This document shows, in pieces, positions 18,577-39,364 of a DNA stretch of 47,193 nt (positions are counted from its first letter, which is position 1; each line of letters opens with the position of its first letter). This DNA is from Okeania sp. KiyG1 (lineage in GTDB: Bacteria; Cyanobacteriota; Cyanobacteriia; Cyanobacteriales; Microcoleaceae): NCBI RefSeq assembly GCF_014132355.1, contig NZ_BLZO01000052.1, forward strand, positions 1-47,193, given 5' to 3'. Position numbers and translations under genes: made by a program. The notes beneath the pieces were generated by a model that did not search any database, was not told where the DNA came from, and saw nothing but the letters and a program-made list of their open reading frames with translations.

Positions 18577-19411
18577 AGTAAATTATATGAATGTGTTGAT
18601 GGGGCGGGCAAATTGTGCGATCGCTACTTCTTTATCTGAGTGCTTCACAGGATGATGATTTTCTGGTGCTTTGATGGGGTGAGTATCTCTATATATATTC
18701 AGTGGCGAAATGCTATTTTTGGGTTGAATAAAAAGTCATGTGTAGGGGCGAGTTACACCCAATGATTACATGGTATCACGATTTTATTGAGGATGCAAGA
18801 GGAAAATCCTTGCCGTTTTTTTGAGCTTCACAAAATGATGACTTTTCTTTGGTTTGTGAATAATAGCGATGACTTCTACATGAGTAAATATATGAATGTG
18901 TTGATGGGGCGGGTAAATTTTGCGTCCGCTACTTCTTTATCTGAGTGCTTTACAGGATGATGATTTTCTGGTGCTTTGATGGGGTGAGTATCTCTATATA
19001 TATTCAGTGGCGAAATGCTGTTTTTGGGTTGAATAAAAAGTCATGCGTAGGGGCGAGTCGCACCCAATGGTTAAATTGTATCACGATTTTATTGAGGATG
19101 CAAGAGGAAAATCCTTGCCGTTTTTTTTGAAGCTTCACAAAATGATGATTTTTCTTTGGTTTGTGAATAATAGCGATGACTTCTACATGAGTAAATATAT
19201 GAATGTGTTGATGGGGCGGGTAAATTTTGCGTCTGCTACTTCTTTATCCGAGTGCTTCACAGGATGATAATTTTCTCTGCTTTGATGGTGTGAGTATCTC
19301 TGTATCTATATATATTCAGTGGCGAAATGCTGTTTTTGGGTTGAATAAAAAGTCATGCGTAGGGGCGAGTTACACGCAATGATTACATGGTATCACGATT
19401 TTATTGAGGAT

Positions 19412-19440
19412 GCAAGGGGAAATACCTTGCCGTTTTTTTT
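19412..19440 (+). terminator. Terminator-like hairpin in unit 5 of the tandem array
   Basis: A perfect stem GCAAGG/CCTTGC with a different loop (GGAAATA) from unit 2, again followed by CG and eight T. The stem is kept while the loop varies. Confidence 0.55.
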
Positions 19441-19655
19441 GAGCTTCACAAAATGATGAATTTTCTTTGGTTTGTGAATAATAGCGATGGCAGAGCAAGT
19501 GCGTTAGCTACAGTGAAATTCTCAAGATATTAATAACTAGAATAATTCACTATTAAATAGCTTTCAGCTAACATCTTGGGTAGACATTTCTTTGAAATTG
19601 TATTGTTCTTAGTTTCAGTAGAAGAAATATAAGTTGTTTGGGGAGCATCCCGTCA

Positions 19656-21582: not shown

Positions 21583-22860
21583 ACAAACTATTGCCTTCGG
21601 ACATGATATTAAGGGTTAAAAAGCTGAGTATTTTTAACTAATAAAGGAAAAAGGAAGAGGGAATAAGGAAGAGGGAGGAAGGTTATTAAGCAAGAAAAAA
21701 ACTGAAATTTACTGTAGATATTCACCAAAAAATAAGGTCTGAAGCCTCCCATTTCAAGGGGATAAAAAAAATCAAGTTCAATATTTCAAGCTTCTGAATT
21801 TCCTAGGTCATGCTGCGAAAAAGGTAGAGGTACTGATAACTGATAACTAATAAAGGTCTAAAGCCTCCCATTTCAAGGGGATAAAAAAAATCAAGTTCAA
21901 TATTTCAAGCTTCTGAATTTCCTAGGTCATGCTGCGAAAAAGGTAGAGGTACTGATAACTGATAACTAATAACTGAAATTACCTTTTAGTTTACACAAAC
22001 GATTACCTTCAGACATGATATTAAGGGTGAAAAATCTGAGTATTTTCAACTAATAAAGGAAGAAGGAAGAAGGAAGAGGGAATAAGGAAGAGGGAGGAAG
22101 GTTATTAAGCAAGAAAAAAACTGAAATTTCCTGTAGGTATTCACCAAAAAATAAGGTCTAAAGCCTCCCATTTCAAGGGGATAAAAAAAATCAAGTTCAA
22201 TATTTCAAGCTTCTGAATTTCCTAGGTCATGCTGCGAAAAAGGTAGAGGTACTGATAACTGATAACTAATAACTGAAATTACCTTTTAGTTTACACAAAC
22301 GATTACCTTCAGACATGATATTAAGGGTGAAAAATCTGAGTATTTTCAACTAATAAAGGAAGAAGGAAGAAGGAAGAGGGAATAAGGAAGAGGGAGGAAG
22401 GTTATTAAGCAAGAAAAAAACTGAAATTTCCTGTAGATATTCACCAAAAAATAAGGTCTGAAGCCTCCCATTTCAAGGGGATAAAAAAATCAAGTTCAAT
22501 ATTTCAAGCCTCTTATACCAATTTCATAAAATATTACTACAGTCATGGCACAGGTATGGAGGGAATAGGTATGGAGGGAATAGGGAAAGAAAAACAGAAA
22601 TATTAAAGAGGAAAAAAGGTTGAATTGTTAGAATTTATGGAATTTATATTTTTTATTGTAGGAATAAATTATCAACTAAGATGTAACTACCTTTTTTGAA
22701 TTTGGTATTACTTTCCTAGGTCATGCTGCGAAAAAGGTAGAGGTACTGATAACTGATAACTGATAACTAATAACTGAAATGACCTTTTACTTTACACAAA
22801 CGATTACCTTCAGACATGATATTAAGGGTAAAAAATCTGAGTATTTTTAACTAATAATTG
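21583..22860 (+). repeat. 300-bp non-coding tandem duplication block
   Basis: The segment 21961-22260 is repeated at 22261-22512 with an offset of exactly 300 bases and almost no differences. Upstream is a diverged copy (about 21590-21850) that contains a 119-base internal duplication (21734 against 21853). Each unit has TTCAGACATGATATTAAGGG, a GGAAGAAG/GGAAGAGG purine tract, AAGCCTCCCATTTCAAGGGG, and GGTAGAGGTACTGATAACTG. The last copy is interrupted by an insert at 22513-22710 and then resumes. No gene is present. Confidence 0.85.
22513..22710. mobile_element. ~198-bp insert with TACCAATTT-type inverted ends
   Basis: It interrupts the 300-bp unit between CAAGCCTCT and CTTTCCTAGG, so its borders are known from the uninterrupted copies. 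The ends ATACCAATTTCA and TTGAATTTGGTATT are imperfect inverted repeats. Similar TACCAATT or AATTGGTAT ends occur near 9640, 37460 and 40572. Non-coding. Confidence 0.65.
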
Positions 22861-23304: not shown

Positions 23305-24720
23305 TTAATTATTAATTATATTCCGCCCATACCAATGGCGAACTACTAACCAAATAATAGAAAGTAATCCGGCAATACTTAAAGTTAATCCACTATAGGG
23401 AACTAATAATGCAAAAATAGGTAAAATTCCGCCTGCAATAGTACAAATAATTGCGGCTAAAGAAGCTTGACGATTTGAGCCTAAACCCCAAACTAAAAAT
23501 AGCAAAATAGGAGAAATTAAACTCCAGACAAATTTTGCATCAATTAAGCGACTAAAGTAAGTCAAAGTCAATAAACAAGCAAAGAAAATTCCGCCTAATA
23601 TTGCCACATCTCGTAAATTCAAAGGTAGGGAAAAATATAAGAGAATTAACCACCATAAAAATAATAATGGAGTTAATATTAATAGACGGGGTAAAATGCC
23701 AGTATTTTTAACTGGGTCTGTGGCGGTAAAAACTCCAAAAGGATTTTTGACAGAAACATTGTCATTAAATATCCAAGTAAATTTACGACCCTGATTTGAT
23801 TCGATAGTTTCAGTGGGAACAATGCCACTAGCAAAGTCTGCTTTGGGAAAATTTGCTAATGCTGTTAATTGAAAGTTTGATAATAGTTGATTATTGGCAT
23901 TATAAATCCAACGAGGTCTGCCTTGAGCTTGATAGTTTACTTTGAAATTGATAGTTTCTCCAGGGGATAAATTAAAGGGAAAATTATAATTTTCAGGGTT
24001 AGTAGGAATTAATCTTTGATTATTTTGTTCAACGCGAAAGTTTTGAAGTAAAGAATAGCCATAAGGAGGACGAATTTCAAAGAAAAAATCCTGGATATCT
24101 TGAAGTTGGTTAGTAACTTGATATTCTGCGGAAAAATCTACAACATAAATGGCTTTAAGATTTTGAACATCTTTGGCTTGATTAATATTTACTTCAATTT
24201 CTGAGGAATTTATTCTGAGATATTTATCCACATTTCTCATACTTTTAATTTCAACCCGTTTATTATCAACCCACTGATAATATGTATATGGTTCTTCTAC
24301 TATATAACGAACTTTTGGAGCAATTTGTTCGAGACGATAGAACTCCGTTCCGTTTGCACGATCGCCTGCTACTCCAGCAGCAATTTTGGCGATTTTTGCT
24401 TGTTCCCAATTATGGTAACGATTACTAAGAGTTGAACAGAGAAAAAATCCTCCTACTAGCAAAATTAAAACTAGAATTAGATGTGCCAACTTTTTAAGTA
24501 AATTGAAATATTGAGATACTAATTCATTAATCAAAATATTTGGTTCTGATTTTTGCGTATGACGGAAAGAAGAATTTAAAATTGCTATTCCTATACCTAA
24601 GAAACCAATGAGAATAATTAATATGAGAGATACTTTGAGAATTTGATTGCCAAATTCAATTAATTCTTGGGGATGAGTAATATCGGGAATATTGGGAATA
24701 CCTTGAGTAGATTGCCACAT
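23305..24720 (-). CDS. Membrane protein of unknown function
   Basis: A 471-residue protein I cannot assign. Two hydrophobic segments lie near the N-terminus (about 30-50, VSLILIILIGFLGIGIAI; about 75-97, KLAHLILVLILLVGGFFLC). A large soluble domain (about 100-345) follows, with beta-rich stretches and no cysteines or obvious catalytic motif (RPPYGYSLLQNFRV, NFPFNLSPGETINF, VKNPFGVFTATDPV). Four or more transmembrane helices occupy about 345-465. The layout of N-terminal helices, one big external domain and a C-terminal helical bundle recalls CreD-like inner membrane proteins, but I see no diagnostic match. It is encoded alone on the minus strand, with repeats on both sides. Confidence 0.75.
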   Translation of the reverse strand: MWQSTQGIPNIPDITHPQELIEFGNQILKVSLILIILIGFLGIGIAILNSSFRHTQKSEPNILINELVSQYFNLLKKLAHLILVLILLVGGFFLCSTLSNRYHNWEQAKIAKIAAGVAGDRANGTEFYRLEQIAPKVRYIVEEPYTYYQWVDNKRVEIKSMRNVDKYLRINSSEIEVNINQAKDVQNLKAIYVVDFSAEYQVTNQLQDIQDFFFEIRPPYGYSLLQNFRVEQNNQRLIPTNPENYNFPFNLSPGETINFKVNYQAQGRPRWIYNANNQLLSNFQLTALANFPKADFASGIVPTETIESNQGRKFTWIFNDNVSVKNPFGVFTATDPVKNTGILPRLLILTPLLFLWWLILLYFSLPLNLRDVAILGGIFFACLLTLTYFSRLIDAKFVWSLISPILLFLVWGLGSNRQASLAAIICTIAGGILPIFALLVPYSGLTLSIAGLLSIIWLVVRHWYGRNIINN

Positions 24721-25538: not shown

Positions 25539-27041
25539 ATGGAAAATCAGACATCAGAAAATCTTTTTAACTCCGCAAAGAAAAATTATCAAAAAGGAAA
25601 TTTAAAATTAGCGACAAAAATCTGCCACAAAATCTTAGAAAGAGAGAGAGAAAATTCGCGATCGCTACATTTATTAGGAGTTATTGCTGGTTTAGAGGGG
25701 CAACCAAAAGAAGCAATTTCTTACCTAACTCAAGCTGTGAAACTAAATCCAAATAATCCCGAAATTCATAGTAATTTGGGTCTGGCACTGAAGGATAACC
25801 AGCAACTTGAAACAGCCATTAAACATTATCAAAAAGCCATTGAACTTAAACCAAATTATGCCGAACCATATAACGGTCTAGGTAACACATTTTTAGAGCT
25901 AGGAAAATTTGAAACAGCCATTAAACATTATCAAAAAGCCATTGAACTTAAACAAAATTATGCCGAACCATATAATGGTTTAGGTAATACATTTTTAGAG
26001 CTAGGAAGACTGGTGAAATCTCAACAATATTATCAACAAGCTCTTAAATTAGACAAAAATCATGCAAATGCTCACTTTGGTTTGGCAGTTATTTTACTTA
26101 AACAGGGAAATTTTATTCAAGGATTTTCTGAATATGAATGGCGCTGGCAAAAGAAAGGTTTTAGAACTCGTAATTTCTCTAAACTTTTGTGGGATGGCTC
26201 AAGTTTTAATGGTAAAACTTTGTTAGTTTATACTGAGCAAGGTTTGGGAGATTCTATTCAATTTATCCGCTATATTTATCTGGTGAAAAAATTAGGAGGG
26301 CGTGTAATAGTTGAACTTAATCAAGCTGGATTGAAATTATTATTTAGCACTATCTCAGGAATTGATAAATTATTTGTTATAGGTGAAAAATTACCAGATT
26401 TTGACCTGCAAATTCCATTGATGAGTCTACCTCGAATTTTGAGAACTACCTTAGAAACTATACCTGCTAAAATTCCTTATTTATCTGTACCAAAATCAAC
26501 TGATTTTTCCATCCCATATGCTCCAGAAAAAAATCTCAAAGTAGGGATATGTTGGCAAACAAGTAGTAATACTAAAACCAGTCAAAAACGTTCTTGCCCA
26601 GTTCAATATTTAGAGGGAATTCTAAGTATAGGTAAAGCTAATTTTTATATTTTACAAAAGGAGGTATTGCCAGCAGATTTAGAATGGTTGAACTCTCAAA
26701 CTAAAATACATAATTTAGGTTCATCTTTTAATGATTTAGCCGATACCTCCGCAGCTATCCAACAACTAGATTTAGTAATTACAATAGATACAGTTATTGC
26801 TCACCTAGCAGGAGCATTAGGAAAACCTGTTTGGGTAATATTAAATTTTGATTCTGATTGGCGATGGATGTTAGATAGAAATGATAGTCCTTGGTATCCC
26901 ACAGCTCGATTATTTAGACAGGCAAAAATAGGAGATTGGAATAGTGTATTTATTGAGGTAAAACAAGCACTAATTCAATTTCAAGAATCTCCAGAAAATC
27001 TTTTAACTCTGCAGTTAAAAATTATCAAAAAGGAAATTTAA
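25539..27041 (+). CDS. TPR protein with GT9-like glycosyltransferase domain (module 1)
   Basis: A 500-residue protein in two parts. Residues about 1-190 are tetratricopeptide repeats (e.g. EAISYLTQAVKLNPNNPEIH, two near-identical units AIKHYQKAIELK.NYAEPY). Residues about 195-490 are a GT-B-like domain resembling glycosyltransferase family 9/heptosyltransferases: TEQGLGDSIQFIRYI at the start, KVGICWQ in the middle, and LDLVITIDTVIAHLAGALGK followed by PVWVILNFDSDWRWMLDRND. Related TPR-GT proteins are often linked to protein or surface glycosylation; the acceptor and sugar are unknown. The last ~15 residues (LLTLQLKIIKKEI) are module 2's N-terminus read out of frame: module 1's own start has AATCTTTTTAAC, this site has AATCTTTTAAC. 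It is therefore probably the broken front end of a longer protein. Confidence 0.85.
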   Translation: MENQTSENLFNSAKKNYQKGNLKLATKICHKILERERENSRSLHLLGVIAGLEGQPKEAISYLTQAVKLNPNNPEIHSNLGLALKDNQQLETAIKHYQKAIELKPNYAEPYNGLGNTFLELGKFETAIKHYQKAIELKQNYAEPYNGLGNTFLELGRLVKSQQYYQQALKLDKNHANAHFGLAVILLKQGNFIQGFSEYEWRWQKKGFRTRNFSKLLWDGSSFNGKTLLVYTEQGLGDSIQFIRYIYLVKKLGGRVIVELNQAGLKLLFSTISGIDKLFVIGEKLPDFDLQIPLMSLPRILRTTLETIPAKIPYLSVPKSTDFSIPYAPEKNLKVGICWQTSSNTKTSQKRSCPVQYLEGILSIGKANFYILQKEVLPADLEWLNSQTKIHNLGSSFNDLADTSAAIQQLDLVITIDTVIAHLAGALGKPVWVILNFDSDWRWMLDRNDSPWYPTARLFRQAKIGDWNSVFIEVKQALIQFQESPENLLTLQLKIIKKEI

Positions 27042-27172
27042 AATTAGCGACAAAAATCTGCCACAAAATCTTAGAAACAGAGGGAGAAAATTCGCGATCG
27101 CTACATTTATTAGGAGTTATTGCTGGTTTAGAGGGGCAAGTAAAAGAAGCAGTTGCCTACCTTTCTCAAGCA

Positions 27173-28321
27173 GTGAAACTGAATCCAAATAATCCCGAAA
27201 TTCATAGTAATTTGGGTCTGGCACTGAAGGATAACCAGGAACTTGAAGCTGCCATTAAACATTATCAAAAAGCACTTGAACTTAAGCAAAACTATGCTGA
27301 ACCATATAACGGTTTAGGGAAGATATTTTTAGAGCTAGGAAAACTGCTGGAATCTCAACAATATTATGAACAAGCTCTTAAATTAGACAAAAATCATGCA
27401 AATGTTCACTTTGGTCTGGCAATTATCTTGCTCAAACAGGGAAATTTTATTCAGGGATTTATTGAATATGAATGGCGCTGGAAAAAGAAAGATTTTATCT
27501 CTCCTAATTTTTCTCAACCTCTGTGGAATGGGTCTAATTTTAATGGCAAAACTTTGTTGGTTTATACCGAGCAAGGATTAGGAGATTCTATTCAATTTAT
27601 CCGCTATATTCCTTTAGTGAAAAAATTAGGAGGGCGTGTAATTGTTAAATGTAATCAAGCAGGGTTAAAATTATTATTTACTACTGTCTCAGGGATAGAT
27701 GACTTATTTGTTAAAGGTGAAAAATTACCAGATTTTGATTTACAAATTCCATTAATGAGCTTACCTAGAATTTGCGGTACTACCCTGGAAACTATACCTG
27801 CTGAAATTCCTTATTTATCTATTCCTAAATCTACCCATTTTCAGATTTCATCTGCTCCAGAAAAAAATCTCAAAATCGGGATATGTTGGCAAACAAGTAG
27901 TAATACTAAAACCAGTCAAAAACGTTCTTGCCAAGTTAAATATTTACAGCAAATTCTCAGTATAGGTAAAACTAATTTTTATCTTTTACAAAAGGAAGTC
28001 TCAGTAGCAGATTTAGAATGGCTGAATTCTCAGACTAAAATACATAATTTAGGTTCATATTTTAATGATTTAGCTGATACAGCAGCAGCAATAAAACAAT
28101 TAGATTTAGTAATTACAATAGATACAGTTGTTGCTCACCTAGCAGGAGCATTAGGAAAACCTGTTTGGGTAATATTAAATTTTGATTCTGATTGGCGGTG
28201 GATGTTAGATAGAAATGATAGTCTTTGGTATCCCACAGCTAGATTATTTAGACAGGCAAAAATTGGAGATTGGGATAGTGTTTTTATTGAGCTAAAACAA
28301 GCAGTAATTGAATTTCTATAA
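27173..28321 (+). CDS. TPR protein with GT9-like glycosyltransferase domain (module 2)
   Basis: A paralog of module 1, with the same TPR units and the full GT9-like domain (EQGLGDSIQFIRYIPLVKKL, KIGICWQTSSNTKTSQKRS, VITIDTVVAHLAGALGKPVW). The GTG at 27173 is only the first usable start. The homologous frame is open and conserved back to about 27002 (AVKNYQKGNLKLATKICHKI), so the coding segment begins there, in continuity with module 1 apart from one missing T. The stop (28319-28321) comes at the point where module 3 begins with the same TCTCCAGAAAATCT junction. Whether it is translated without module 1 is doubtful. Confidence 0.75.
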   Translation: MKLNPNNPEIHSNLGLALKDNQELEAAIKHYQKALELKQNYAEPYNGLGKIFLELGKLLESQQYYEQALKLDKNHANVHFGLAIILLKQGNFIQGFIEYEWRWKKKDFISPNFSQPLWNGSNFNGKTLLVYTEQGLGDSIQFIRYIPLVKKLGGRVIVKCNQAGLKLLFTTVSGIDDLFVKGEKLPDFDLQIPLMSLPRICGTTLETIPAEIPYLSIPKSTHFQISSAPEKNLKIGICWQTSSNTKTSQKRSCQVKYLQQILSIGKTNFYLLQKEVSVADLEWLNSQTKIHNLGSYFNDLADTAAAIKQLDLVITIDTVVAHLAGALGKPVWVILNFDSDWRWMLDRNDSLWYPTARLFRQAKIGDWDSVFIELKQAVIEFL

Positions 28322-28474
28322 TCTCCAGAAAATCTGTTTAAAACCGCAGTTAATAATTATCAAAAAGGAGATTTAAAATTAGGAGCAAAAATCTTCCACA
28401 AAATCTTAGAAAGAGATACAGAAAATTGGCGGTTGCTAGATTTATTAGGAGTTATTGCTGGTTTAGAGGGGCTA

Positions 28475-28612
28475 TTAAACAATTAATAATTAATAATTAA
28501 CAATTAACAATTACTTCTCCTGGAAAAGAAGATGATTGACGCGGTAGGGAAAATTTTTTCTTGTTTCTCCTTTAAAGGAGAGGCTTTAAGCCTTAATTAT
28601 TCGGTAAAAAAA
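28475..28612 (-). repeat. Family-A element, short copy A9, inserted in module 3
   Basis: AACAATTAATAATTAATAAT arm, a CTCCTGGAAAAGAAGATGATTGACG-like stem region, CTCCTTTAAAGGAG and the end TTATTCGGTAAA. The central palindrome is missing, as in the copy at 9726. Modules 1 and 2 show the uninterrupted protein (AGLEGQ.KEA) at this point. Confidence 0.75.
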
Positions 28613-29151
28613 ATAGTTGCCTACCTTTACTAAGCAGTGAAATTTAATCCAAATAATGCCAAAATTAATAGTGATTTTGGTCTAGCACTGAAGGACAAGC
28701 AGAAACTTGAAGCTGTCGTTGAAAATCATCAAAAAGCATTTGAACTTAAGCCAAATTATCCTGAACCAGATAACGGTTTAGGGAACATATTTTTAGAATT
28801 AGGAAAACTTACAGAATCTCAATTTGGAGTAGCTATTGAACATTATCAAAAAGGAAATTTAAAATTAGCGAAAAAAATCTGCCATAAAATCTGAGAAAGA
28901 CATATAGAAAATTGGCGATCGCTACATTTATTAGGAGTTATTGCTGGTTGAGAGAGACAAGTAAAAGAAGTAGTTGCCTAATTTTCTCAAGCAGTGAAAT
29001 TTAATCCAAATAATGCCTAAATTCATAGTAATTTTGGTCTAGCACTGAAGGACAACCAGAAACTTGAAGCTGTCATTGAAAATCATCAAAAAGCATTTGA
29101 ACTTAAGCCAAATTATCCTGAACCAGATAACGGTTTAGGGAACATATTTTT

Positions 29152-29266
29152 GGGTGCATCTCATATTTGCAAAAATACTATTTTCCTATATATTCCTTGT
29201 TGCCTTTCGGAGCTGTTGTCTAAAAGCGATAAATTTTTGGCTTTATTCACGCATTGAGATGCACCC
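29152..29266. mobile_element. 115-bp MITE with GGGTGCATCTCA ends, inserted in module 3
   Basis: 12-bp perfect inverted ends GGGTGCATCTCA / TGAGATGCACCC and an exact 8-bp duplication ATATTTTT (29144-29151 and 29267-29274). Modules 1 and 2 provide the empty site (GGTAACACATTTTTAGAGCT). The family of the parent transposon cannot be named from this alone. Confidence 0.88.
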
Positions 29267-29957
29267 ATATTTTTAGAGCTAGGAAAACTTATAAAATCTC
29301 AATAATATTATGAACAAGCTCTTAAATCAGACAAAAATTATGCAAATGCTCACTTTGGTTTAGCTGTTGTTTTGCTCAAGCAGAGAAATTTTATCCAAGT
29401 ATTAGGAGTTATTGGTTAGTGATTTTGGCTTGTCAAAAATCTTTAATTAAATTGCTGGAAACTATTCCTGGAATTGAAAAATGTGTATACCGCAAAGCAA
29501 ATTTTCATAATTTTGATGTTCATTCACCATTGTTAGAATTACCTCGGATATTGGGAAGTACTTTAGATAATATTCCTCTACCAATTCCGAATTTAAAAAT
29601 ACTCAATACTCAACCTATAAAATTAGAGCTACCAGTCGGAAGTTTCTTGAAATTTGGTATTATTTGGGCTGCCAAAGCAAGCAATCCAACTGCTGCTAAA
29701 CGTTCTTGTAAGTTAAAATGTTTTCAATCATTGTTAGACATAGCAGGAGTGACTTTTTATAGTCTGCAAAAAGAGGCTGGAGTAGATATTCAATTATTAG
29801 AAATATTACCTATATTAGATTTAAGTAGTGAGTTAAATGACTTTGCTGATACGACTGGAATTATTGCTAAACTTGACTTAGTAATTACTGTTGATACGGC
29901 AGTAGCACATTTAACAGGAAAATTAGGTAAACCTGTGTGGATTTTATTACCTTGTGT

Positions 29958-30168
29958 GTAATAATTTCCTGCGGAATGCTGCGCAAACAGCTATTAGCTA
30001 TAAGCTATTAATTTTAGAGAAGGTAAAAACAACCTTTGAAATTGAGAAAGAATAAAAATTTACTGCCAAAGTCCCATTTATAAACCTGAAAAGTAATTAT
30101 TCATTACTAATTGCTGAATGCGAGCGCATTCCGTAGGAATAGCTGACTGCTAATAGCTGAATGCTTAC
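29958..30168 (+). mobile_element. GTAAGC-type element, second subfamily, 211 bp, inserted in module 3
   Basis: The left end GTAATAATTTCC is degenerate, the right end TAGCTGAATGCTTAC is good. Flanks CCTTGTGT (29950-29957) and CCTTTTGT (30169-30176) match 7 of 8. It splits the GT9-like domain between WILLP and DW. It carries palindromes of the GGAATGCTGCGCAAAC kind at both ends. Confidence 0.72.
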
Positions 30169-30231
30169 CCTTTTGTGCCAGACTGGTGATGAATGTTAGA
30201 TAGAAATGATAGTCCTTGCTATCTCACAGCT

Positions 30232-30321
30232 AATCCCGCTACGCGGAAGTTAAAAGTCAATCATTTTTGATTTGTAATTGTTTTAGGATTTTGTAACCAG
30301 TTATTTCCGCTATCCTGCACT
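30232..30321. repeat. Repeat fragment shared with 37155-37290
   Basis: CGCTACGCGGAAGTTAAAAG at the left and TTTTAGGATTTTGTAACCAG followed by ATCCTGCACTAG at the right. It is inserted between the CACAGCT and AGATTATTTAG parts of the module-3 glycosyltransferase. Confidence 0.6.
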
Positions 30322-30362
30322 AGATTATTTAGACAGCCAAAAATTAATGATTGGGATAGTTT

Positions 30363-30581
30363 CATTAATTGATAATTGATAATGGATAATTGATAATTAC
30401 CTCTGGTTAAAACTGAGAGGATTGAATATAAGGAAATATTATTTCTTCTCTTGCTTGATTGGATATGGCGCAGGTTTCCTCGCCATCCCACCCTTCGGGA
30501 AGCTGCGCTAACGACCGATTTTTTCTCCTTAAAAGGGGAGGTTTAAAACTAGAATTATTTAATTATTAATTATTAATTATT
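30363..30581 (-). repeat. Family-A element, copy A10
   Basis: ATTGATAATTGATAATGGAT arm, CTGGTTAAAACTGAGAGG, GATTGGATATGGCG, CAGGTTTCCTCGCCATCCC, CTTCGGGAAGCTGCGCTAAC, then a T-run and AAAAGGGGAGG. It is inserted at the end of module 3 (after GATTGGGATAGTTTCATT). Its AT-rich right arm hosts the MITE at 30582. Confidence 0.72.
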
Positions 30582-30854
30582 AATTAGGGCTTGCTGATTA
30601 AATATCAAAGCTTTTACAGACAAAGGTTTTAGCATTTTTAGGTCTTGAAAAAGTACCTTTTTTTTTAGCTCCAATCGTTCAAAAAGTTAGCATTTTGAGC
30701 ATTTCGATGAGAAGAAAATCAAGGGAAGATTCTTCCTCCTACCTCTTCTATAATTCCCATTCCTCCTGAATTGCAGGATTGCTGTTTGCGGAGCATTCCG
30801 TAGGAAATTCTGGATTCTCCCCTGACAAAAAGACTTTTTCAGCAAGCCCTAATT
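30582..30854 (+). mobile_element. AATTAGGG-type MITE, copy 3 (273 bp)
   Basis: The ends are AATTAGGGCTTGCTGA and TCAGCAAGCCCTAATT, perfect inverted repeats over 16 bases. It sits in the AT-rich arm of the flanking family-A element. It holds a GTTTGCGGAGCATTCCGTAG palindrome inside. Non-coding. Confidence 0.8.
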
Positions 30855-30869
30855 ATTCGGCAAGGATTC

Positions 30870-31113
30870 AGTTCAATAATTGATAATTGATAATTGATAA
30901 TGGATAATTACCTCTTCCTTTTAGGGAGAGGATTGAATAAAAGGAAAAAATTTCTTCTCTTGGTCGATTGGATATGGCGCAGGTTTCCTCGCCATCCTAC
31001 CCTACGGGAAGCTCCGCTAACGACCGCTTTTTTCCCCTTGAAAGGGGAGGCTTTAAACCTGAATTATTGAATTATTGAATTATTGAATTATTGAATTATT
31101 AATTCTTCGGTAA
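30870..31113 (-). repeat. Family-A element, copy A11
   Basis: ATTGATAATTGATAATTGAT arm, the same core order as A10, and a right arm made of ATTGAATT octamers ending TTCGGTAAAAC. Together with 30363-30854 it separates module 3 from module 4. The protein-coding homology (AAACAAGCATTAATTGAATT) resumes directly after it. Confidence 0.72.
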
Positions 31114-31145
31114 AACAAGCATTAATTGAATTTATAGAATCTCAG

Positions 31146-34100
31146 ATGAAGTTAACAGAAAGATTTCAAATTGCATATCAGTATTATCAACAAAATAATT
31201 GGGCAGCAGCAGAAAGAATATGTCGTCGAATACTTGAGGAAAAACCACAATATTTTGATGCACTGCACTTATTAGCTGTACTGGAATATTTATCAGGTAG
31301 AAATGAAACTGCTATTAATCTTTTTCATCAGGTTATTAATCTTCGCCCTAACTTTAGTCAAGGTTATTCAAATTTAGGAAATATCCTGAAAAAAGAAGGT
31401 CGTTTAGAAGAAGCGATCGCTCATTATCAAATAGCTATTTCTCTGGAATCTAGTGATAGTAGTAACTATTCAAATTTAGGACTAATTTTTTTAGAAAAAG
31501 GTCAAATTGATTTGGCAATTATTAACTATGAAAAGTCTAGAGAAATTAATCCTGACAACTCATACACAAATCTCAATTTAGGCTTTGCTTGGGAAAAAAA
31601 GGGAGACTTATCAAAGGCGAGTACCTATTATCAACAGGCAATTAAAATTAATCCTAATTATGCTGAAGCATGGTACAACTTAGGACATATTTTACGAAAA
31701 CAAGGTCAAGTTGAAACAGCTATTGAATATTATCAAAAATGTCTTGAACTCAATCCAGATTATACTGAAGCATATAATGCTTTAGGCTTTATTTTTTTAA
31801 GACTTGGAAAAGTTGCAAAATCTCAAAAATATTATGAACAGGCTCTGAAATTAGACAAAAATTATGTAAATGCTCACTTTGGTTTAGCTGTTGTTTTGCT
31901 CAAACAGGGAAATTTTATTCAAGGTTTTTCTGAATATGAATGGCGCTGTCTAGACAAGAAGACTAATACTCGTAGTTTTTCTCAACTTTTGTGGGATGGT
32001 TCAAATTTTCAGGGTAAAACTTTGTTAGTTTATACCGAACAGGGATTAGGAGATTCTATTCAATTTATCCGCTATATTCCTCTGGTGAAAAAATTAGGAG
32101 GATGGGTAATTTTTGAATGTAATCAACCTGAGTTGAAATTATTATTTACTTCTGTCTCAGGAATAGATGAATTATTTGTTAGTGGTGAAAAATTACCAGA
32201 TTTTGACCTGCAAATTCCATTACTTAGCTTACCTAGAGTTTTCGGTACTACCCCAGAAACTATACCTGCTAAAATCCCTTACTTATCTATTCCTAAATCT
32301 ACTCATTTTCAGATGCCACCTATCCCAGAAAAAAAATTTAAAGTAGGGATATTTTGGCAAACAAGTAGTACTACTAGAACGAGTCAAGAACGTTCTTGTT
32401 CTATTCAATATTTCAGAGACATTTTAAATATATATATAGATAAGGCTAACTTTTATATTTTACAAAAAGAAGTCTCTCAAACAGATTTAGATTGGCTTAA
32501 CTCTCAGACTCAAATCCATAATTTCAGTTCATCTTTGAATGATTTAGCTGATACAGCAGCAGTTATAAAACAATTAGATTTAGTAATTACAATAGATACA
32601 GTTGTTGCTCACCTAGCAGGAGCATTAGGAAAACCTGTTTGGGTAATGTTAAATTTTGATTCTGATTGGCGGTGGATGTTAGATAGAAATGATAGTCCTT
32701 GGTATCCCACAATGAGGTTATTTAGACAGTCAAAAATTGGAGATTGGGATAATGTATTTGAACAAGTGAAAGACAATTTAAGAGATTTGTTGGAGAATAG
32801 TTCTTCTCAAAAGAAAGTCCCAGAAATTATGGGTATAAAATTTTCTGATTCTCCAATGAAACAAACTTTGAAAAAATACAAATCTGGAAACTTGAAAGAA
32901 ACGGTGAGTATTTGTCAGAAGATTGTTAAAAAACAGCCCAATAACTTTTTAGCTTTAGAACTTTTGGGTGTATGTGCTTATCAAAGCAGTGAAATAGAAC
33001 AGGCGTTCGCTTATTATCAAGAGTCTTTAAAAGTAAATCCTAATTATGCGGAAACTCATAATAATTTAGCTGTTGCACTTCAAGATAATCAGGAAATTGA
33101 TGCTGTGCTTAATCATTGTCAAACTGCAATTAATTTTCACCTTAATTGTGCTGAAGCATGGCATAACTTAGGACGTATTTTGCGAGATAAAGGTCAAGTT
33201 GAAGCAGCTATTGAGCATTATCAAAAATCTCTTGAACTTAAACCAATTTATGCAGAAGTTTATAATAGTCTAGGCAGTATATTTTTAGAGTTAGGAAAAT
33301 TTGCAGAATCTCAACAATATTATGAACAAGCTCTGAAATTAAATAAAAATCATGTAAATGCTCACTTTGGTTTAGCTGTTGTTTTGCTCAAACAAGGAGA
33401 TTTTATTCAAGGTTTTTCTGAATATGAATGGCGTTGTCAACGTAAAGATTATGTAACTGGTAATTTTCCTCAACCTCTATGGGATGGGTCAGATTTTTCA
33501 GGAAAAACTTTATTGGTTTATACCGAACAAGGTTTAGGAGACTCTATTCAATTTATTCGCTATATTCCTTTGGTGAAAAAATTGGGAGGGCGTGTAATTG
33601 TTGGATGTAATAAAGCTGGATTAAAGTTATTATTTACCACTGTTCCAGAAATAGATGAATTATTTGTTATAGGTGAAGAATTACCAGATTTTGACCTGCA
33701 AATTCCATTGATGAGTCTACCTAAAATTTTTGGTACTACCCTAGAAATTATACCTGCTGAAATTCCTTATTTATTTGTGCCAGAATCAAAAAAAATTAAA
33801 CTGCCAGACACTGGAAATAGTTTCAAAATAGGCATAACCTGGGAAACAAATAGTCAAAGGAAGACTAGCAAAAAACGTTCTTGGTCTGTAGCAGATTTTC
33901 AATCTATTTTGAATGTAGAGAATGCTAGCTTTTATATTTTACAAAAAGAAGTCTCTTCCATAGATTTAGAATGGCTGAAATCTCAAACTAAAATTCATAA
34001 TTTAGGTTCATCTTTTAAAGAAGTCTCTTCCATAGATTTAGAATGGCTGAAATCTCAAACTAAAATTCATAATTTAGGTTCATCTTTTAATGACCTAGCT

Positions 34101-34568
34101 GATACAGCAGCAGCAATAAAACAATTAGATTTAGTAATTACAATAGATACAGTTATTGCTCACTTAGCAGGAGCATTAGGAAAATCAGTTTGGGTAATGT
34201 TAAATTTTGATTCTGACTGGCGCTGGTTAATAGACCGCGAAGATAGTCCTTGGTATCCCACAATGAGATTATTTCGTCAGAGTAAATCTGATAATTGGCA
34301 AGGAGTATGTCGAGAAGTTGTCAATGCTTTATCATCTAAATTACTGAATTTTAATCAAACAGATTATCCATCAATAATTCAACCAGGGTCATCAGTTACA
34401 ACTGAGCAGTTACTGACAACAGCGTTAGAAAAATGTGAAGGAGAAAACTGGAAGGAAGCAGAGAAAATATGTCAGTTTATTATTCAATATCAACCCCATT
34501 GCGCTGCTGCATTTGAGATACTTGCTCTATGTGCAAAAAAAAACAGGCAAAATAGATTTAGAAATTGA
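31146..34568 (+). CDS. Large two-module TPR plus GT9-like glycosyltransferase (modules 4 and 5)
   Basis: A 1140-residue protein: TPRs (about residues 5-265), a GT9-like domain (about 270-560; EQGLGDSIQFIRYIPLVKKL, VITIDTVVAHLAGALGKPVW), a second TPR block (about 575-740), a second GT9-like domain (about 745-1075) and the start of a third TPR block. This direct fusion supports the view that the whole 25.5-37.1 kb array was one polymodular gene. Residues near 940-985 contain a perfect 24-residue tandem duplication (KEVSSIDLEWLKSQTKIHNL...). The C-terminus (KKNRQNRFRN) is out of frame after a run of nine A at 34534-34542; with eight A it would continue into the next ORF as KKTGKIDLEI. Likely cytoplasmic. 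Sugar and acceptor unknown. Confidence 0.88.
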   Translation: MKLTERFQIAYQYYQQNNWAAAERICRRILEEKPQYFDALHLLAVLEYLSGRNETAINLFHQVINLRPNFSQGYSNLGNILKKEGRLEEAIAHYQIAISLESSDSSNYSNLGLIFLEKGQIDLAIINYEKSREINPDNSYTNLNLGFAWEKKGDLSKASTYYQQAIKINPNYAEAWYNLGHILRKQGQVETAIEYYQKCLELNPDYTEAYNALGFIFLRLGKVAKSQKYYEQALKLDKNYVNAHFGLAVVLLKQGNFIQGFSEYEWRCLDKKTNTRSFSQLLWDGSNFQGKTLLVYTEQGLGDSIQFIRYIPLVKKLGGWVIFECNQPELKLLFTSVSGIDELFVSGEKLPDFDLQIPLLSLPRVFGTTPETIPAKIPYLSIPKSTHFQMPPIPEKKFKVGIFWQTSSTTRTSQERSCSIQYFRDILNIYIDKANFYILQKEVSQTDLDWLNSQTQIHNFSSSLNDLADTAAVIKQLDLVITIDTVVAHLAGALGKPVWVMLNFDSDWRWMLDRNDSPWYPTMRLFRQSKIGDWDNVFEQVKDNLRDLLENSSSQKKVPEIMGIKFSDSPMKQTLKKYKSGNLKETVSICQKIVKKQPNNFLALELLGVCAYQSSEIEQAFAYYQESLKVNPNYAETHNNLAVALQDNQEIDAVLNHCQTAINFHLNCAEAWHNLGRILRDKGQVEAAIEHYQKSLELKPIYAEVYNSLGSIFLELGKFAESQQYYEQALKLNKNHVNAHFGLAVVLLKQGDFIQGFSEYEWRCQRKDYVTGNFPQPLWDGSDFSGKTLLVYTEQGLGDSIQFIRYIPLVKKLGGRVIVGCNKAGLKLLFTTVPEIDELFVIGEELPDFDLQIPLMSLPKIFGTTLEIIPAEIPYLFVPESKKIKLPDTGNSFKIGITWETNSQRKTSKKRSWSVADFQSILNVENASFYILQKEVSSIDLEWLKSQTKIHNLGSSFKEVSSIDLEWLKSQTKIHNLGSSFNDLADTAAAIKQLDLVITIDTVIAHLAGALGKSVWVMLNFDSDWRWLIDREDSPWYPTMRLFRQSKSDNWQGVCREVVNALSSKLLNFNQTDYPSIIQPGSSVTTEQLLTTALEKCEGENWKEAEKICQFIIQYQPHCAAAFEILALCAKKNRQNRFRN

Positions 34569-35529
34569 TTGCCACCAGAAAGCAATTAACTTCAACCCTA
34601 ATAATTATCAAACTCATCTAAGGTTAGCTATTGCTCTGAAAAAACAACAGAAACTAGAACAGGCAATAGTTCATAATCAAATAGCGATTGAACTGAAACC
34701 AAATGATGCTTCAACTTGGCATAATTTAGGTCTAATATTTGAACTTCAAGGCAATATTTCAGAAGCAATTCGTTGTTTTGAACAATCTCTACAGATTAAA
34801 CCAAATAATGCTGATATTTATTACTCTTGGGGTAATATTCTGAAAGAACAGGGCAATTTAACAGAAACAAAAGTTCTTTATGAGAAATGTCTTGAGTTCA
34901 ATCCTAACCATATCAATGCTCACTTTGCTAAAGGATTTATTCTTCTTAAACAAGGAGATTTTTTAGCTGGATTTTCTGAATATGAATGGCGCTGCCAACG
35001 TCAAGATTACATAACTCGTAGTTTTGCTCAACCTGTATGGGATGGCTCAGATTTTTCCGGAAAAACTTTATTAGTTTATACCGAACAAGGTTTAGGAGAT
35101 TCTATTCAATTTATCCGCTATATTCCTTTGGTGAAAAAATTAGGAGGGCGTGTAATTTTTGAATGTAATCAAGCTGGATTAAAATTCTTATTTACCACTG
35201 TTTCAGAAATAGATGAATTATTTGTTGAAGGTGAAAAATTACCAGATTTCGACCTACAGATTTCATTGATGAGTCTACCTCTAATTTTCGGAACTACCCC
35301 AGAAACTATACCTGCTGAAATTCCTTATTTATCTGTACCAAAATCAATCAATTTTCCCATTCCACTTATTCCAGAAAAAAATCTCAAAGTGGGAATATGT
35401 TGGCAAACAAATAGTACCAGCGAAACCAGTCAAATACGTTCTTGCCCAGTTGAATATTTACAAGCAATTATTAATATAGATACAGTCAATTTTTACATTT
35501 TACAAAAGAAGTCTCTTCCGCAGATTTAG
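34435..35529 (+). CDS. TPR plus GT9-like glycosyltransferase, module 6 (frameshifted at both ends)
   Basis: It overlaps the previous gene by 134 bases in another frame. The first ~30 residues (MKEKTGRKQRKYVSLLFNIN) are the out-of-frame reading of module-6 TPR sequence and are not native. True homology begins at KKTGKIDLEIDCHQKAINFN after the A9 run. TPR units occupy about residues 40-175 and the GT9-like domain follows (EQGLGDSIQFIRYIPLVKKL, KVGICWQTNSTSETSQIRSC). It ends prematurely at FYILQKKSLPQI because this copy has four A (ACAAAAGAAG) where the sister copy at 35893 has five. The missing C-terminal half of the domain is present downstream in another frame. Without slippage this is a non-functional fragment. 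Confidence 0.75.
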   Translation: MKEKTGRKQRKYVSLLFNINPIALLHLRYLLYVQKKTGKIDLEIDCHQKAINFNPNNYQTHLRLAIALKKQQKLEQAIVHNQIAIELKPNDASTWHNLGLIFELQGNISEAIRCFEQSLQIKPNNADIYYSWGNILKEQGNLTETKVLYEKCLEFNPNHINAHFAKGFILLKQGDFLAGFSEYEWRCQRQDYITRSFAQPVWDGSDFSGKTLLVYTEQGLGDSIQFIRYIPLVKKLGGRVIFECNQAGLKFLFTTVSEIDELFVEGEKLPDFDLQISLMSLPLIFGTTPETIPAEIPYLSVPKSINFPIPLIPEKNLKVGICWQTNSTSETSQIRSCPVEYLQAIINIDTVNFYILQKKSLPQI

Positions 35530-36152
35530 AATGGCTTAACTCTCAAACTAAAATTCATAATTTAGGCTCATCTTTTAATGACCTAGCTGATACAGTAGCA
35601 GCAATAAAACAATTAGATTTAGTAATTACAATAGATACAGTTATTGCTCACTTAGCAGGAGCATTAGGAAAACCAGTTTGGGTAATGTTAAATTTTGATT
35701 CTGACTGGCGCTGGTTAATAGACCGGGAAGATAGTCCTTGGTATCCCACAATGAGATTATTTCGTCAGAGTAAATATGTTGGCAAACAAATAGTACCAAC
35801 AAAACCAGTCAAATACGTTCTTGCCCAGTTGAATATTTACAAGCAATTATTAATATAGATACAGTCAATTTTTACATTTTACAAAAAGAAGTCTCTTCCA
35901 CAGATTTAGAATGGCTTAACTCTCAAACTAAAATTCATAATTTAGGCTCATCTTTTAATGACCTAGCTGATACAGTAGCAGCAATAAAACAATTAGATTT
36001 AGTAATTACAATAGATACAGTTATTGCTCACTTAGCAGGAGCATTAGGAAAACCAGTTTGGGTAATGTTAAATTTTGATTCTGACTGGCGCTGGTTAATA
36101 GACCGGGAAGATAGTCCTTGGTATCCCACAATGAGATTATTTAGACAGGCAA
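35395..36152 (+). repeat. 379-bp tandem duplication of the glycosyltransferase C-terminal half
   Basis: The sequence starting ATATGTTGGCAAACAAATAG at 35395 recurs at 35774. The offset is 379 bases, becoming 380 after the A-run difference. The junction CGTCAGAGTAAATATGTTGG places the second copy directly after a complete first copy and introduces a TAA in the frame. Confidence 0.88.
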
Positions 36153-37120
36153 AAATTGGAGATTGGCATAATGTATTTAAGCAAGTTAAAGACAACTTAA
36201 AAAATTTGCTAGATAATAATTCTCCAACCAATAAAATTTCTGAAAAAAGGGTATTAATCGGAATTATTTTCTCAGAAAATACTCAATTTACCTCAGAACA
36301 AATTAATCGCTCTAAAGCTTATGATTTGATTATTACCGGATCTACCTGGAATACCAAAATTCTAGAAACTAATGGTATCAAACCCGTACAAAAAATTTTA
36401 CAAGGCATTGACCAAACAATTTTTCATCCCGCACCTAAATCTAATATTTTTAGCGATCGCTTTGTTGTTTTTTCTGGTGGAAAACTAGAATATCGTAAAG
36501 GTCAAGATATTGTCATAGCAGCTTTTAAAATCTTCCAAAAACGTTATCCAAAAGCACTATTAATTACAGCTTGGCATAACTTCTGGCCTCAATTTATGGT
36601 AGGAATTGAGCAAACTGGAAATGTTGTAGGATTACCGAAAATTAGTCAAAATAAACGTTTACAAATTACTCAATGGTTACTAGAAAATGAAATTCCTAGC
36701 AATGCAGTTATTGATGTTGGTCCGATTCCTAATTATATGGTAGGACAAATATTACGAGAAGCTGATGTGGCTGTATTTACAAATCGCTGCGAAGGCGGTA
36801 CAAATCTTGTTGCAATGGAAAGTCTTGCCTGTGGTATCCCAACAATTATTTCTGCTAATACTGGGCATTTAGATATTATTAATAACTCTCATTGTTATCC
36901 CTTACATAATCAAAATTCTGTGAAACCTACTCCACAATTTCCAGGTGTAGATGGTTGGGGAGAATCTGATGTTGAAGAAGTAGTAGAAATGTTAGAAAAG
37001 GTTTATTTTGACCGAGAAGATGCTCAACTTAGGAGCAAAACTGCTGTTAGTATTATGCAAGACTTGACTTGGGAAAAACAAATTCAACGTCTGCTTGTTG
37101 TTCTGCAAAATGTAATTTAA
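36065..37120 (+). CDS. GT4-like glycosyltransferase domain, terminal part of the TPR-GT array
   Basis: Residues 1 to about 55 (MLNFDSDWRWLIDREDSPWY...) are the tail of a GT9-like domain; the same frame is open and homologous back to about 35775 but lacks a start. From about residue 60 there is a separate GT-B glycosyltransferase of the group 1 (GT4) kind: NRSKAYDLIITGSTWN, FVVFSGGKLEYRKGQDIVIAAF, then the nucleotide-sugar binding region ADVAVFTNRCEGGTNLVAME (E-x7-E motif) and SLACGIPTIISANTGH. It ends with the helix LTWEKQIQRLL. The ATG at 36065 is inside the GT9 tail, so it was most likely once the C-terminus of the polymodular protein. Whether it is expressed on its own cannot be judged. 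Confidence 0.8.
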   Translation: MLNFDSDWRWLIDREDSPWYPTMRLFRQAKIGDWHNVFKQVKDNLKNLLDNNSPTNKISEKRVLIGIIFSENTQFTSEQINRSKAYDLIITGSTWNTKILETNGIKPVQKILQGIDQTIFHPAPKSNIFSDRFVVFSGGKLEYRKGQDIVIAAFKIFQKRYPKALLITAWHNFWPQFMVGIEQTGNVVGLPKISQNKRLQITQWLLENEIPSNAVIDVGPIPNYMVGQILREADVAVFTNRCEGGTNLVAMESLACGIPTIISANTGHLDIINNSHCYPLHNQNSVKPTPQFPGVDGWGESDVEEVVEMLEKVYFDREDAQLRSKTAVSIMQDLTWEKQIQRLLVVLQNVI

Positions 37121-38473: not shown

Positions 38474-39364
38474 TTAATTCAGTGCCATAATCCTATAACT
38501 GCCAAATATTTTTAGAGTTTCCGTATAGGTCTTCAACTCCTCTATTGCCATTGTTATCAAATTATCATTATTCTTAGTTTCTATATCAATAAAAAATAAA
38601 TAATCCCCTAGCGATCGCTTCGTAGGACGAGACTCTATTCTACTCATATTAATTCCCCTTTTAGCAAATACTTCCAAAGGCTTCACTAAAGCTCCTGGTA
38701 CATTTTCAGGAACACTAAAACCTAGAGAAATAAAAACATAACTTCCCGGTTGATTTATCCCATTAATTATTAGTTTTAAATCAGAATTATCTATTTCTGT
38801 ACATCCTTCTTTCAATACCCAAAAACGAGTATAATTGTCAGGATAATCATTAATTGGATAAGCTAATATAGGTAATTGATAAAGTTCAGCCGCTCTTTGA
38901 GAAGCGATCGCTGCGGCACTCCGGTCCTTACCTAAATGTCGCAATGCTTCTGCAGTAGAATTATCAGGAATTTGCTGTACTTGTGGCAAAAATTTTTCTA
39001 ACCAACCTTGACATTGAGCTAAAGCTTGTGGATGAGAATAAACAGTTTTAATCTCCTCAAAACTATCAGCTAATGATATTAACCCATGAGAAATAGGCAA
39101 GATTAATGCTGTTTGAATCTCTAAAGAGTCCAATTGCCAAAGCGTATCCAGAGTAACAGTAACACTCCCTTCAATAGAATTTTCTACAGGTACAACTGCC
39201 AAATTAACTTCCCCTTGAGAAACTGCCCATAAAGTTTGAGCAATACTAGGATATGGACACAGAAAAGATTTTTGACCAAACTGACTCAGTTTATTAGTAA
39301 ATGCCACTGCTGCTGTCTCGGCATTAGTACCAGCGGGGCCAAGATGTGCAATTGATATGGTCAT
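38474..39364 (-). CDS. pheA: Prephenate dehydratase
   Basis: Converts prephenate to phenylpyruvate in phenylalanine synthesis. The 296-residue monofunctional form has no chorismate mutase domain. The catalytic PDT domain (1 to about 185) shows HLGPAGTNAETAA, PVENSIEG (59-66) and the catalytic TRF (179-181, YTRFWVL). The C-terminal ACT domain (about 208-292) has GALV (224-227) and ESRP (244-247), the residues that bind phenylalanine for feedback inhibition, so the enzyme is expected to be Phe-sensitive. The start is supported by GGAG before the ATG. It is divergent from the two DUF1997 genes. In several cyanobacteria pheA, DUF1997, rnhB and rne are close neighbours; here they are about 30 kb apart. 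Confidence 0.95.
   Translation of the reverse strand: MTISIAHLGPAGTNAETAAVAFTNKLSQFGQKSFLCPYPSIAQTLWAVSQGEVNLAVVPVENSIEGSVTVTLDTLWQLDSLEIQTALILPISHGLISLADSFEEIKTVYSHPQALAQCQGWLEKFLPQVQQIPDNSTAEALRHLGKDRSAAAIASQRAAELYQLPILAYPINDYPDNYTRFWVLKEGCTEIDNSDLKLIINGINQPGSYVFISLGFSVPENVPGALVKPLEVFAKRGINMSRIESRPTKRSLGDYLFFIDIETKNNDNLITMAIEELKTYTETLKIFGSYRIMALN

Follow-up and report, generated by a model that had tools for sequence, protein, structure and literature searches.

Glycosyltransferases in which a tetratricopeptide repeat (TPR) superhelix leads into a catalytic domain of the GT-B fold are represented by OGT and SPINDLY (family GT41), which have one catalytic domain per chain. The GT-B fold is also that of the GT9 heptosyltransferases WaaC and WaaF and of the autotransporter protein heptosyltransferase TibC. 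To our knowledge, multi-module glycosyltransferases contain two or three catalytic modules. Klebsiella WbbB includes three glycosyltransferase modules that belong to three different CAZy families (PMC11231755). WbbB, together with the Actinobacillus capsule multienzyme (8qoy), resembles the gene considered here in having several glycosyltransferase modules per polypeptide with helical spacers, and both build one glycan, as is proposed below for the present gene. This gene, in which modules composed of TPRs and a GT9-like domain are followed by a GT4-like domain, (TPR-GT9)n-GT4, differs in having five to seven homologous GT9-like modules with TPRs between them, not modules of three families. 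Positions 25539-37120 of a stretch of 47,193 nucleotides from Okeania sp. KiyG1 (contig NZ_BLZO01000052.1, assembly GCF_014132355.1), referred to as a whole as the window, are almost certainly the decaying remains of one giant gene of this type.

More closely related are proteins with a single TPR-GT9-like module, namely an 822-aa paralogue (L004) encoded elsewhere in the KiyG1 genome and a phage version. These share with the giant gene the TPRs and a compact GT9-like domain, and L004 is 44% identical over the shared part, but they have one catalytic module, are of ordinary size and no GT4 was found in them. No description of the (TPR-GT9)n-GT4 architecture was found among the literature matches listed, in a search that covered titles and the beginnings of abstracts and for the most part did not extend to subscription papers.

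Modules of the window copy and intact relatives

Six TPR and GT9-like modules and then a GT4-like domain were located head to tail on the + strand, with matches to the Pfam TPR, PF01075 and PF00534 profiles, as had been claimed from the sequence alone in the original prediction. Module 1 (25539-27041, GT9-like domain at 26073-26963) is an open reading frame (ORF) of 500 aa that starts with MENQTSENLF, matching the start in Okeania SIO3B5, and retains the motifs EQGLGD, IDTVIAHL and DWRW. Module 2 (26957-28321, GT9 at 27407-28297) is entered from module 1 via a frame change and terminates at an in-frame TAA at 28319. Module 3 (28322-30360) is a decayed remnant of a divergent GT9 type, with a partial GT9 part at 29419-29952, many stops and a frame change, and is followed by an insert of dispersed repeats on the same strand (30361-31094), with homology back by 31113. 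Modules 4 (31095-32790, GT9 at 31875-32771) and 5 (32772-34340, GT9 at 33363-34319, with an internal 72-bp tandem duplication at 33945-34090) lie, as predicted, within a single 1140-aa ORF (31146-34568). The TPR_1 profile matches this ORF at E 1.6e-75, and homologies of that strength are far beyond chance. Module 6 (34429-36190), in which a 380-bp tandem duplication occupies 35394-36142, has TPRs and a GT9-like domain divided over three frame pieces (34921-36190), and the GT4-like domain (36251-37120, domain match at 36251-37111) is missing its N-terminal lobe.

Alignment of the GT9 domains with each other gave pairwise identities of 70-86% among modules 1, 2, 4 and 5 and the first piece of module 6, and of 32-44% between the module 3 piece and the others. 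The motifs EQGxGD, DTxxxH-type and [DN][WY]RW are all present in modules 1, 2, 4 and 5, and the examined pieces of modules 3 and 6 retain one motif each. EQGxGD is taken here to be the GT9 N-lobe motif and DTxxxH the nucleotide-binding motif, with catalytic roles assumed from GT9 enzymes. The predicted continuity of the protein across module boundaries was borne out, since the shared boundary words were found at 26984 between modules 1 and 2, at 28320 between modules 2 and 3 in a shorter form of 16 bases, and at 31113 past the insert.

Intact relatives were examined in a survey of the best 80 of 410 confirmed relatives, ranked by similarity of GT4 using a GT4-domain profile. Only the + strand with 10-kb flanks was read, and hence the survey underestimates longer arrays and misses loci that lack this GT4; two pairs of loci (L079/L083 and L102/L103) are from the same genome. 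A single ORF of more than 3,000 codons with five GT9 domains and GT4, the form for which a search of related genomes had been suggested, was present in 22 of the 80 loci, and every ORF of this length has n=5 (for L062, this count includes two modules split by insertions). Among them is L057 of Trichodesmium erythraeum GBRTRLIN201, from the window's own family, with 3157 codons. The expectation that such a gene would be unusual was not upheld, as the family is widespread in filamentous cyanobacteria. GT4 lies in an ORF that is uncut at its 5' side in 68 loci and cut in 12; by number of GT9 domains, the 68 are divided into 22 with n=5, two with n~4, six with n=3, six with n~2, 17 with n~1 and 15 with none. 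GT4 was found together with about two or more GT9 domains, in an ORF not truncated by the locus boundary, in 36 of the 80 loci, of which L050, L058, L072 and L079 are later parts of genes split upstream. Small-n entries include pieces of broken genes, for example L050, L051, L052, L058, L072, L079 and L083.

A search of 40 genomes likewise identified single ORFs with the same domain order, namely L033 of T. erythraeum (3157 aa), L035 (3131 aa), L036 (3253 aa) and L037 (3353 aa) with five GT9 domains each, L039 (2576 aa) with four, one of which is split by an insertion, and L034 (2066 aa) with three; L038 (2985 aa) is cut by a contig end. TPRs were detected by Pfam in three intact giants (L033, L035 and L034) and are inferred in the others from the homology of the spacer sequences. 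Of the spacers in the 19 Microcoleus-type loci, the third measures 363-368 aa in 17 loci and the fourth 267-268 aa in 18, with the others more variable. All 109 modules of the 22 loci have EQGxGD and [DN][WY]RW, and 107 of them have the DTxxxH-type motif; the GT4 motif EGGTN-x4-E is present in 22 of 22 intact loci and in the window. The largest array seen, in Hormoscilla sp. GUM202 (L059, L132 and L133; G040:C10:10371-35570), comprises 14 GT9 modules, all on the same strand within ~25 kb. They are divided among three ORFs, of 3063 aa (five modules), 1048 aa (two) and 3695 aa (seven). An unrelated-looking 325-aa ORF precedes the 3695-aa ORF, and GT4 is in the next, separate ORF. Filamentous cyanobacteria therefore keep (TPR-GT9)n-GT4 open with n from 1 to 5, and Hormoscilla has seven GT9 domains in one ORF with GT4 in the next. 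A contig scan queried with the two-module ORF returned no relative.

If the region were instead a tandem cluster of independent one-module TPR-GT9 genes that merely abut, each module would be expected to have its own start and stop, a picture that the original prediction had named as its refutation. Formats nearer to this picture exist, and they count against a single giant gene. In G025 (L040), two one-module ORFs, of 570 and 738 aa, abut in one frame and are separated by a single stop, the Hormoscilla modules are distributed over three ORFs with GT4 in a fourth, and GT4 ORFs without GT9 or with one GT9 make up 15 and 17 of the 80 loci, respectively, though some are broken-gene pieces. In addition, module 1 stands alone in Okeania SIO2B3 and SIO1I7, and the host genome includes the one-module paralogue. 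However, 22 of the 80 loci have five modules and GT4 in a single ORF. Moreover, the first ATG, GTG or TTG of window module 2 is a GTG at 27173, which falls within the TPRs, and TPR sequence runs on from module 1; modules 1 and 2 are fused in SIO3B5; and the stops examined at the Okeania module boundaries are TAA codons with in-frame homology past them. A cluster of independent genes is hence considered very improbable, and the predicted origin of the region as one giant gene is supported.

Damage to the Okeania copies

As judged by homology to the proteins of relatives, the reading frame of the window copy runs 2-1-3-(insert)-2-3-2-1. In-frame stops are absent from 25539-27032 and from the sequence beyond 30360, and number 11 in 27033-29398 and 13 in 29416-30360, the last count possibly including a non-homologous part as the end of that stretch may be past true homology. 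The insert at 30361-31094 is a member of a dispersed repeat family for which the host genome gave 91 matches, the insert included, with 40 of 1,927 first-look candidates scored. Many copies of the family represented at 30400-31060 are ~185 bp long, and a similar-looking string was noticed, by eye only, at a break in SIO2B3 (L031). At the 3' end, 20 aa separate the GT9 and GT4 profile matches (21 by the measure applied to relatives), as compared with 113-359 aa in 57 of the 57 relatives that passed filters out of 80, and an alignment with 13 relatives showed a gap where the GT4 N-terminal lobe should be. The window copy therefore lacks both the two-lobe GT-B structure of GT4, whose N-terminal lobe is gone, and a frame that is open over the whole length. 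Single-base homopolymer differences, named in the original prediction beside inserts, are not the main damage, which includes the insert, the many stops, the 72-bp and 380-bp duplications and the lost GT4 lobe.

The host genome (10.98 Mb) was grouped in one genus with G001-G005, and Okeania SIO3B5, SIO2B3, O. hirsuta, SIO2C9 and SIO1I7 are same-genus relatives. Three of these have interior copies (SIO2B3, SIO1I7 and SIO3B5), all of which are broken at sites unlike those in the window. In SIO2B3 and SIO1I7, module 1 is a separate 485-aa ORF followed by a TAA that is common to the two, and at least that stop was thus inherited. Modules 1 and 2 of SIO3B5 are in a single 1001-aa ORF. All boundary stops examined in the window and these three relatives are TAA, with homology then continuing in frame. 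The split in SIO2B3 (L031) between ORFs of 1798 and 1881 aa coincides with a run of N and is therefore not counted as a break. Copies in SIO2C9, O. hirsuta and SIO3I5 start at contig ends; a second SIO3I5 contig (G017, L030) has ORFs of 449, 2537 and 528 aa with the last split also at N. The gene is breaking down in Okeania.

The ratio of nonsynonymous to synonymous substitution rates (dN/dS) against the five closest relatives was 0.20-0.33 for module 1, 0.24-0.60 for module 2, 0.55-0.79 for module 3, 0.23-0.31 for module 4, 0.24-0.39 for module 5, 0.23-0.33 for the first piece of module 6 and 0.14-0.33 for GT4. The value of 0.60 for module 2 was obtained against SIO3B5 on 16 substitutions. 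For comparison, a neighbouring radical SAM gene gave ~0.13 against SIO1I7 and the prephenate dehydratase gene 0.27 against Trichodesmium. This pattern suggests that module 3 has long been weakly constrained and the remainder only recently, if at all.

Several observations count against the reading as a decayed giant gene. Apart from module 2 against SIO3B5, the window modules outside module 3 have dN/dS of 0.14-0.39, and hence decay would have to be recent or partial. Furthermore, a split is also present in Trichodesmium sp. MAG_R02 (L058), and the ORF that is open in T. erythraeum seems, by eye, to start in the linker after a lost module.

The low dN/dS outside module 3 would also be expected if the breaks were sequencing or assembly errors and the window gene were actually an intact giant. 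The genome is a draft of 198 contigs, near-perfect duplications of 72 and 380 bp can be products of the assembler, and one split each in SIO2B3 and SIO3I5 is at a run of N and so proves nothing. Nevertheless, other long genes in the window (those for RNase E, radical SAM, EF-Tu and prephenate dehydratase) are open, module 3 has many stops together with a raised dN/dS, a dispersed repeat has been inserted, the N-terminal lobe of GT4 has been deleted, and the in-frame TAA common to SIO2B3 and SIO1I7 was inherited. Such errors are thus an extremely unlikely explanation for the breaks.

It is also improbable, though less so, that the broken copy is still used, either with the pieces acting as separate enzymes or with the frame changes and stops recoded. 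The motifs are intact in modules 1, 2, 4 and 5, and dN/dS is mostly 0.2-0.3, which is near the value for prephenate dehydratase against Trichodesmium. However, recent decay would give low dN/dS as well, and the ratio for the radical SAM neighbour is lower. The sites of the breaks differ among Okeania copies, and the damage to module 3 and GT4 is beyond rescue by recoding. Programmed frameshifting at the short T run between modules 1 and 2 was considered and rejected, as modules 1-2 of SIO3B5 are open in one frame and the other Okeania copies break elsewhere, at in-frame stops. As a decaying gene, the window copy could yield at best single fragments, for example the 500 aa of module 1 and the 1140 aa of modules 4-5.

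Fold, module history and proposed function

A model of module 4 was predicted by AlphaFold2 from an alignment with 52 other modules (predicted local distance difference test score, pLDDT, 95.5; predicted template modelling score, pTM, 0.90) and consists of sixteen helices, forming eight TPR-like pairs, and then a GT-B domain. This predicted combination of a TPR superhelix fused to a GT-B domain is that of GT41. When the whole module was compared with structures in the PDB, matches were SPINDLY (E 1.1e-18, TMq 0.49, root-mean-square deviation 11), designed TPR proteins and OGT; the model thus appears to have the same build as SPINDLY and OGT, although the full structures do not superimpose. VIA-align, run on the complete module, returned mostly TPR chains and was little informative on the glycosyltransferase domain.

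The glycosyltransferase domain modelled alone (pLDDT 91.1) matched GT9 structures ahead of GT41. Ranks 1-9 of the Foldseek search of the PDB were occupied by the GT9 protein 3tov, WaaF (1psw), WaaC and TibC, with E 7.6e-8 to 2.1e-5 and TMq 0.50-0.59 (3tov, E 7.6e-8 and TMq 0.59). A plant photosystem supercomplex chain (rank 10) and UDP-GlcNAc 2-epimerases were further matches, and the GT41-type protein 2vsy was at rank 50 (E 2.5e-3) among the 50 matches listed. The predicted model is therefore a GT-B fold nearest to GT9 structures, and the conserved acidic-residue and nucleotide-binding motifs of GT9 are present, their roles being taken from WaaC. Identity to WaaC, WaaF and TibC is 10-13%, and the domain differs from these enzymes in being shorter, linked to TPRs and serially repeated. 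PF01075 (cut-off 22) scored 37.5 bits in the two-module ORF and 54-97 bits in three intact giants, and GT4 was assigned by PF00534 with 47.2 bits (cut-off 26.4). The assignment to GT9 is weakened by the scores of PF01075 in the three one-module ORFs (17.6-21.5 bits, modules 1, 2 and 3) and in the ORF with the last GT9 piece and GT4 (19.9 bits), and by the finding that an alignment of the GT9-like domain retrieved no PDB chain by sequence at E<=1. PF01075 was missing from the matches of the first frame piece in module 6, and its best stretch spans 33-46 profile positions. A 449-aa TPR protein of the Synechococcus cyanophage S-SRM01 (BFVD A0A879R292) matched the model of the domain with TMq 0.80 and 25% identity.

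A maximum-likelihood tree was built from 79 GT9 domains. In it, four species of Microcoleus, Tychonema and Lyngbya had their five modules clustered by position, the Okeania and Trichodesmium modules, other than the module 3 type, formed their own clade, and the Hormoscilla modules formed two clades of their own. A FastTree analysis with midpoint root of the 19 Microcoleus-type loci resolved each of the five positions as an exclusive clade in 19 of 19 loci, with supports of 1.0, 0.999, 1.0, 0.664 and 0.999. Median dN/dS per position in these loci was 0.12-0.19, which indicates purifying selection (calculated on the first 10 of these 19, with 41-45 of the 45 pairs retained at each position after removal of those with dS outside 0.05-1.2). 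As each position retains its own sequence identity across species of the Microcoleus group, the stations there are unlikely to be redundant copies. The low support for position 4 (0.664), together with the modules of L062 and L092, which do not match the Microcoleus positions, detracts from this conclusion. Window module 1 clustered with module 1 of SIO3B5 and SIO1I7, and module 2 with module 2 of SIO3B5. Window modules 5 and 6 clustered with SIO2B3 modules that precede the module 3 type, but in the window they come after it, and the array has thus been rearranged within the genus.

Taken together, a decayed giant gene, whose intact form we read as a putative multi-enzyme glycan assembly line with non-redundant stations, is the explanation that we consider highly probable overall. 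The intact protein would be soluble, and each module would have a separate GT-B active site of GT9 type, set on a TPR superhelix that would bind or position the acceptor by analogy with OGT and SPINDLY. A single acceptor, which may be a protein or a glycan bound to a carrier, would receive sugars from successive modules, GT4 would perform a chemically different step, and recombination among the repeats would change the number of modules between lineages. Each intact module is probably an active glycosyltransferase. That the modules form an ordered line acting on one acceptor is possible, with slightly less than an even chance, and a protein and a lipid-linked glycan appear equally plausible as the acceptor. 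It is more doubtful that five to seven GT9-type sites in fixed order, each with its own donor or acceptor preference, and GT4 act such that the order and number of modules encode the sugar chain in the manner of a polyketide synthase, with lineages recombining modules and Okeania losing the system.

Repetition of modules might alternatively provide avidity or dosage, the protein being a multi-headed protein glycosyltransferase that adds the same sugar to many sites. The number of modules differs between lineages, the Okeania and Trichodesmium modules are similar and reshuffled, SPINDLY and OGT, both protein O-glycosyltransferases, give the best long structural matches to the module, and TibC is among the matches of the glycosyltransferase domain. 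On the other hand, 19 Microcoleus-type loci have kept the five positions distinct, and GT4, the last domain, belongs to another enzyme family. Redundant heads for the same sugar, a somewhat unlikely arrangement overall, fit the shuffled arrays of Okeania and Hormoscilla better than the frozen arrays of Microcoleus.

The gene joins five homologous glycosyltransferase modules and a sixth enzyme in one chain, which is open and position-distinct across the 19 loci of Microcoleus type. Were the modules to act in order, the structure of the glycan could be deduced from that of the gene and could be rewritten through exchange of modules. The decaying Okeania copies beside an open Trichodesmium copy provide a natural loss series for linking the gene to a surface glycan or glycoprotein.

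Neighbouring genes and other features of the window

Upstream of the giant gene and divergent from it is a gene (23305-24720, - strand) for a 471-aa protein with hydrophobic stretches, as judged by eye, and no match in Pfam or NCBIfam. It accompanies the giant gene in L031 (SIO2B3) and L030 (G017) as well; L043 (G004) has it in pieces and L047 (G003) has part of it. The encoded proteins are 80-89% identical over the matched parts. Downstream is the prephenate dehydratase gene (38474-39364, - strand), a BLAST cluster of which follows the giant gene in 8 of the 80 loci, all from Okeania, Trichodesmium or the related MO_207.B10; the cluster member from T. erythraeum shares 79% identity with the window protein.

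A UbiA-type gene lies just upstream in 27 of the 80 loci (Microcoleus and Laspinema types, for example L061, L074, L088 and L108) at a median distance of 109 bp, and these loci span n=5, 4, 3 and 1. In the three scanned (L037, L061 and L108), it was named homogentisate phytyltransferase by NCBIfam. A link to tocopherol synthesis was not adopted, and the gene was taken as evidence of conserved position, not function. A related convergent protein is encoded downstream in 16 of the 80 loci; among the three scanned, those of L037 and L071 have a glycosyltransferase 2 domain and that of L074 has methyltransferase domains only. A cluster of FkbM-type methyltransferases, two members of which were scanned, is common to seven loci. 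These glycosyltransferase and methyltransferase neighbours are consistent with work on glycans but do not prove it.

Near the start of the window, a GDP-fucose synthase-like gene (858-1583, - strand), whose listed ORF begins inside the domain and whose frame extends upstream without a usual start codon, is accompanied by gmd for GDP-mannose 4,6-dehydratase (2684-3712, - strand). SPINDLY is a fucosyltransferase, and a GDP-fucose link through these genes (858-3712) was considered and dropped, as they are >20 kb from the giant gene with nothing connecting them. An Rfam scan of the window at gathering scores gave no match. Long tandem arrays are present at 18577-19489 and 21734-22513 (305 bp in three copies; units of 119 and 300 bp), along with many 7-base repeats.

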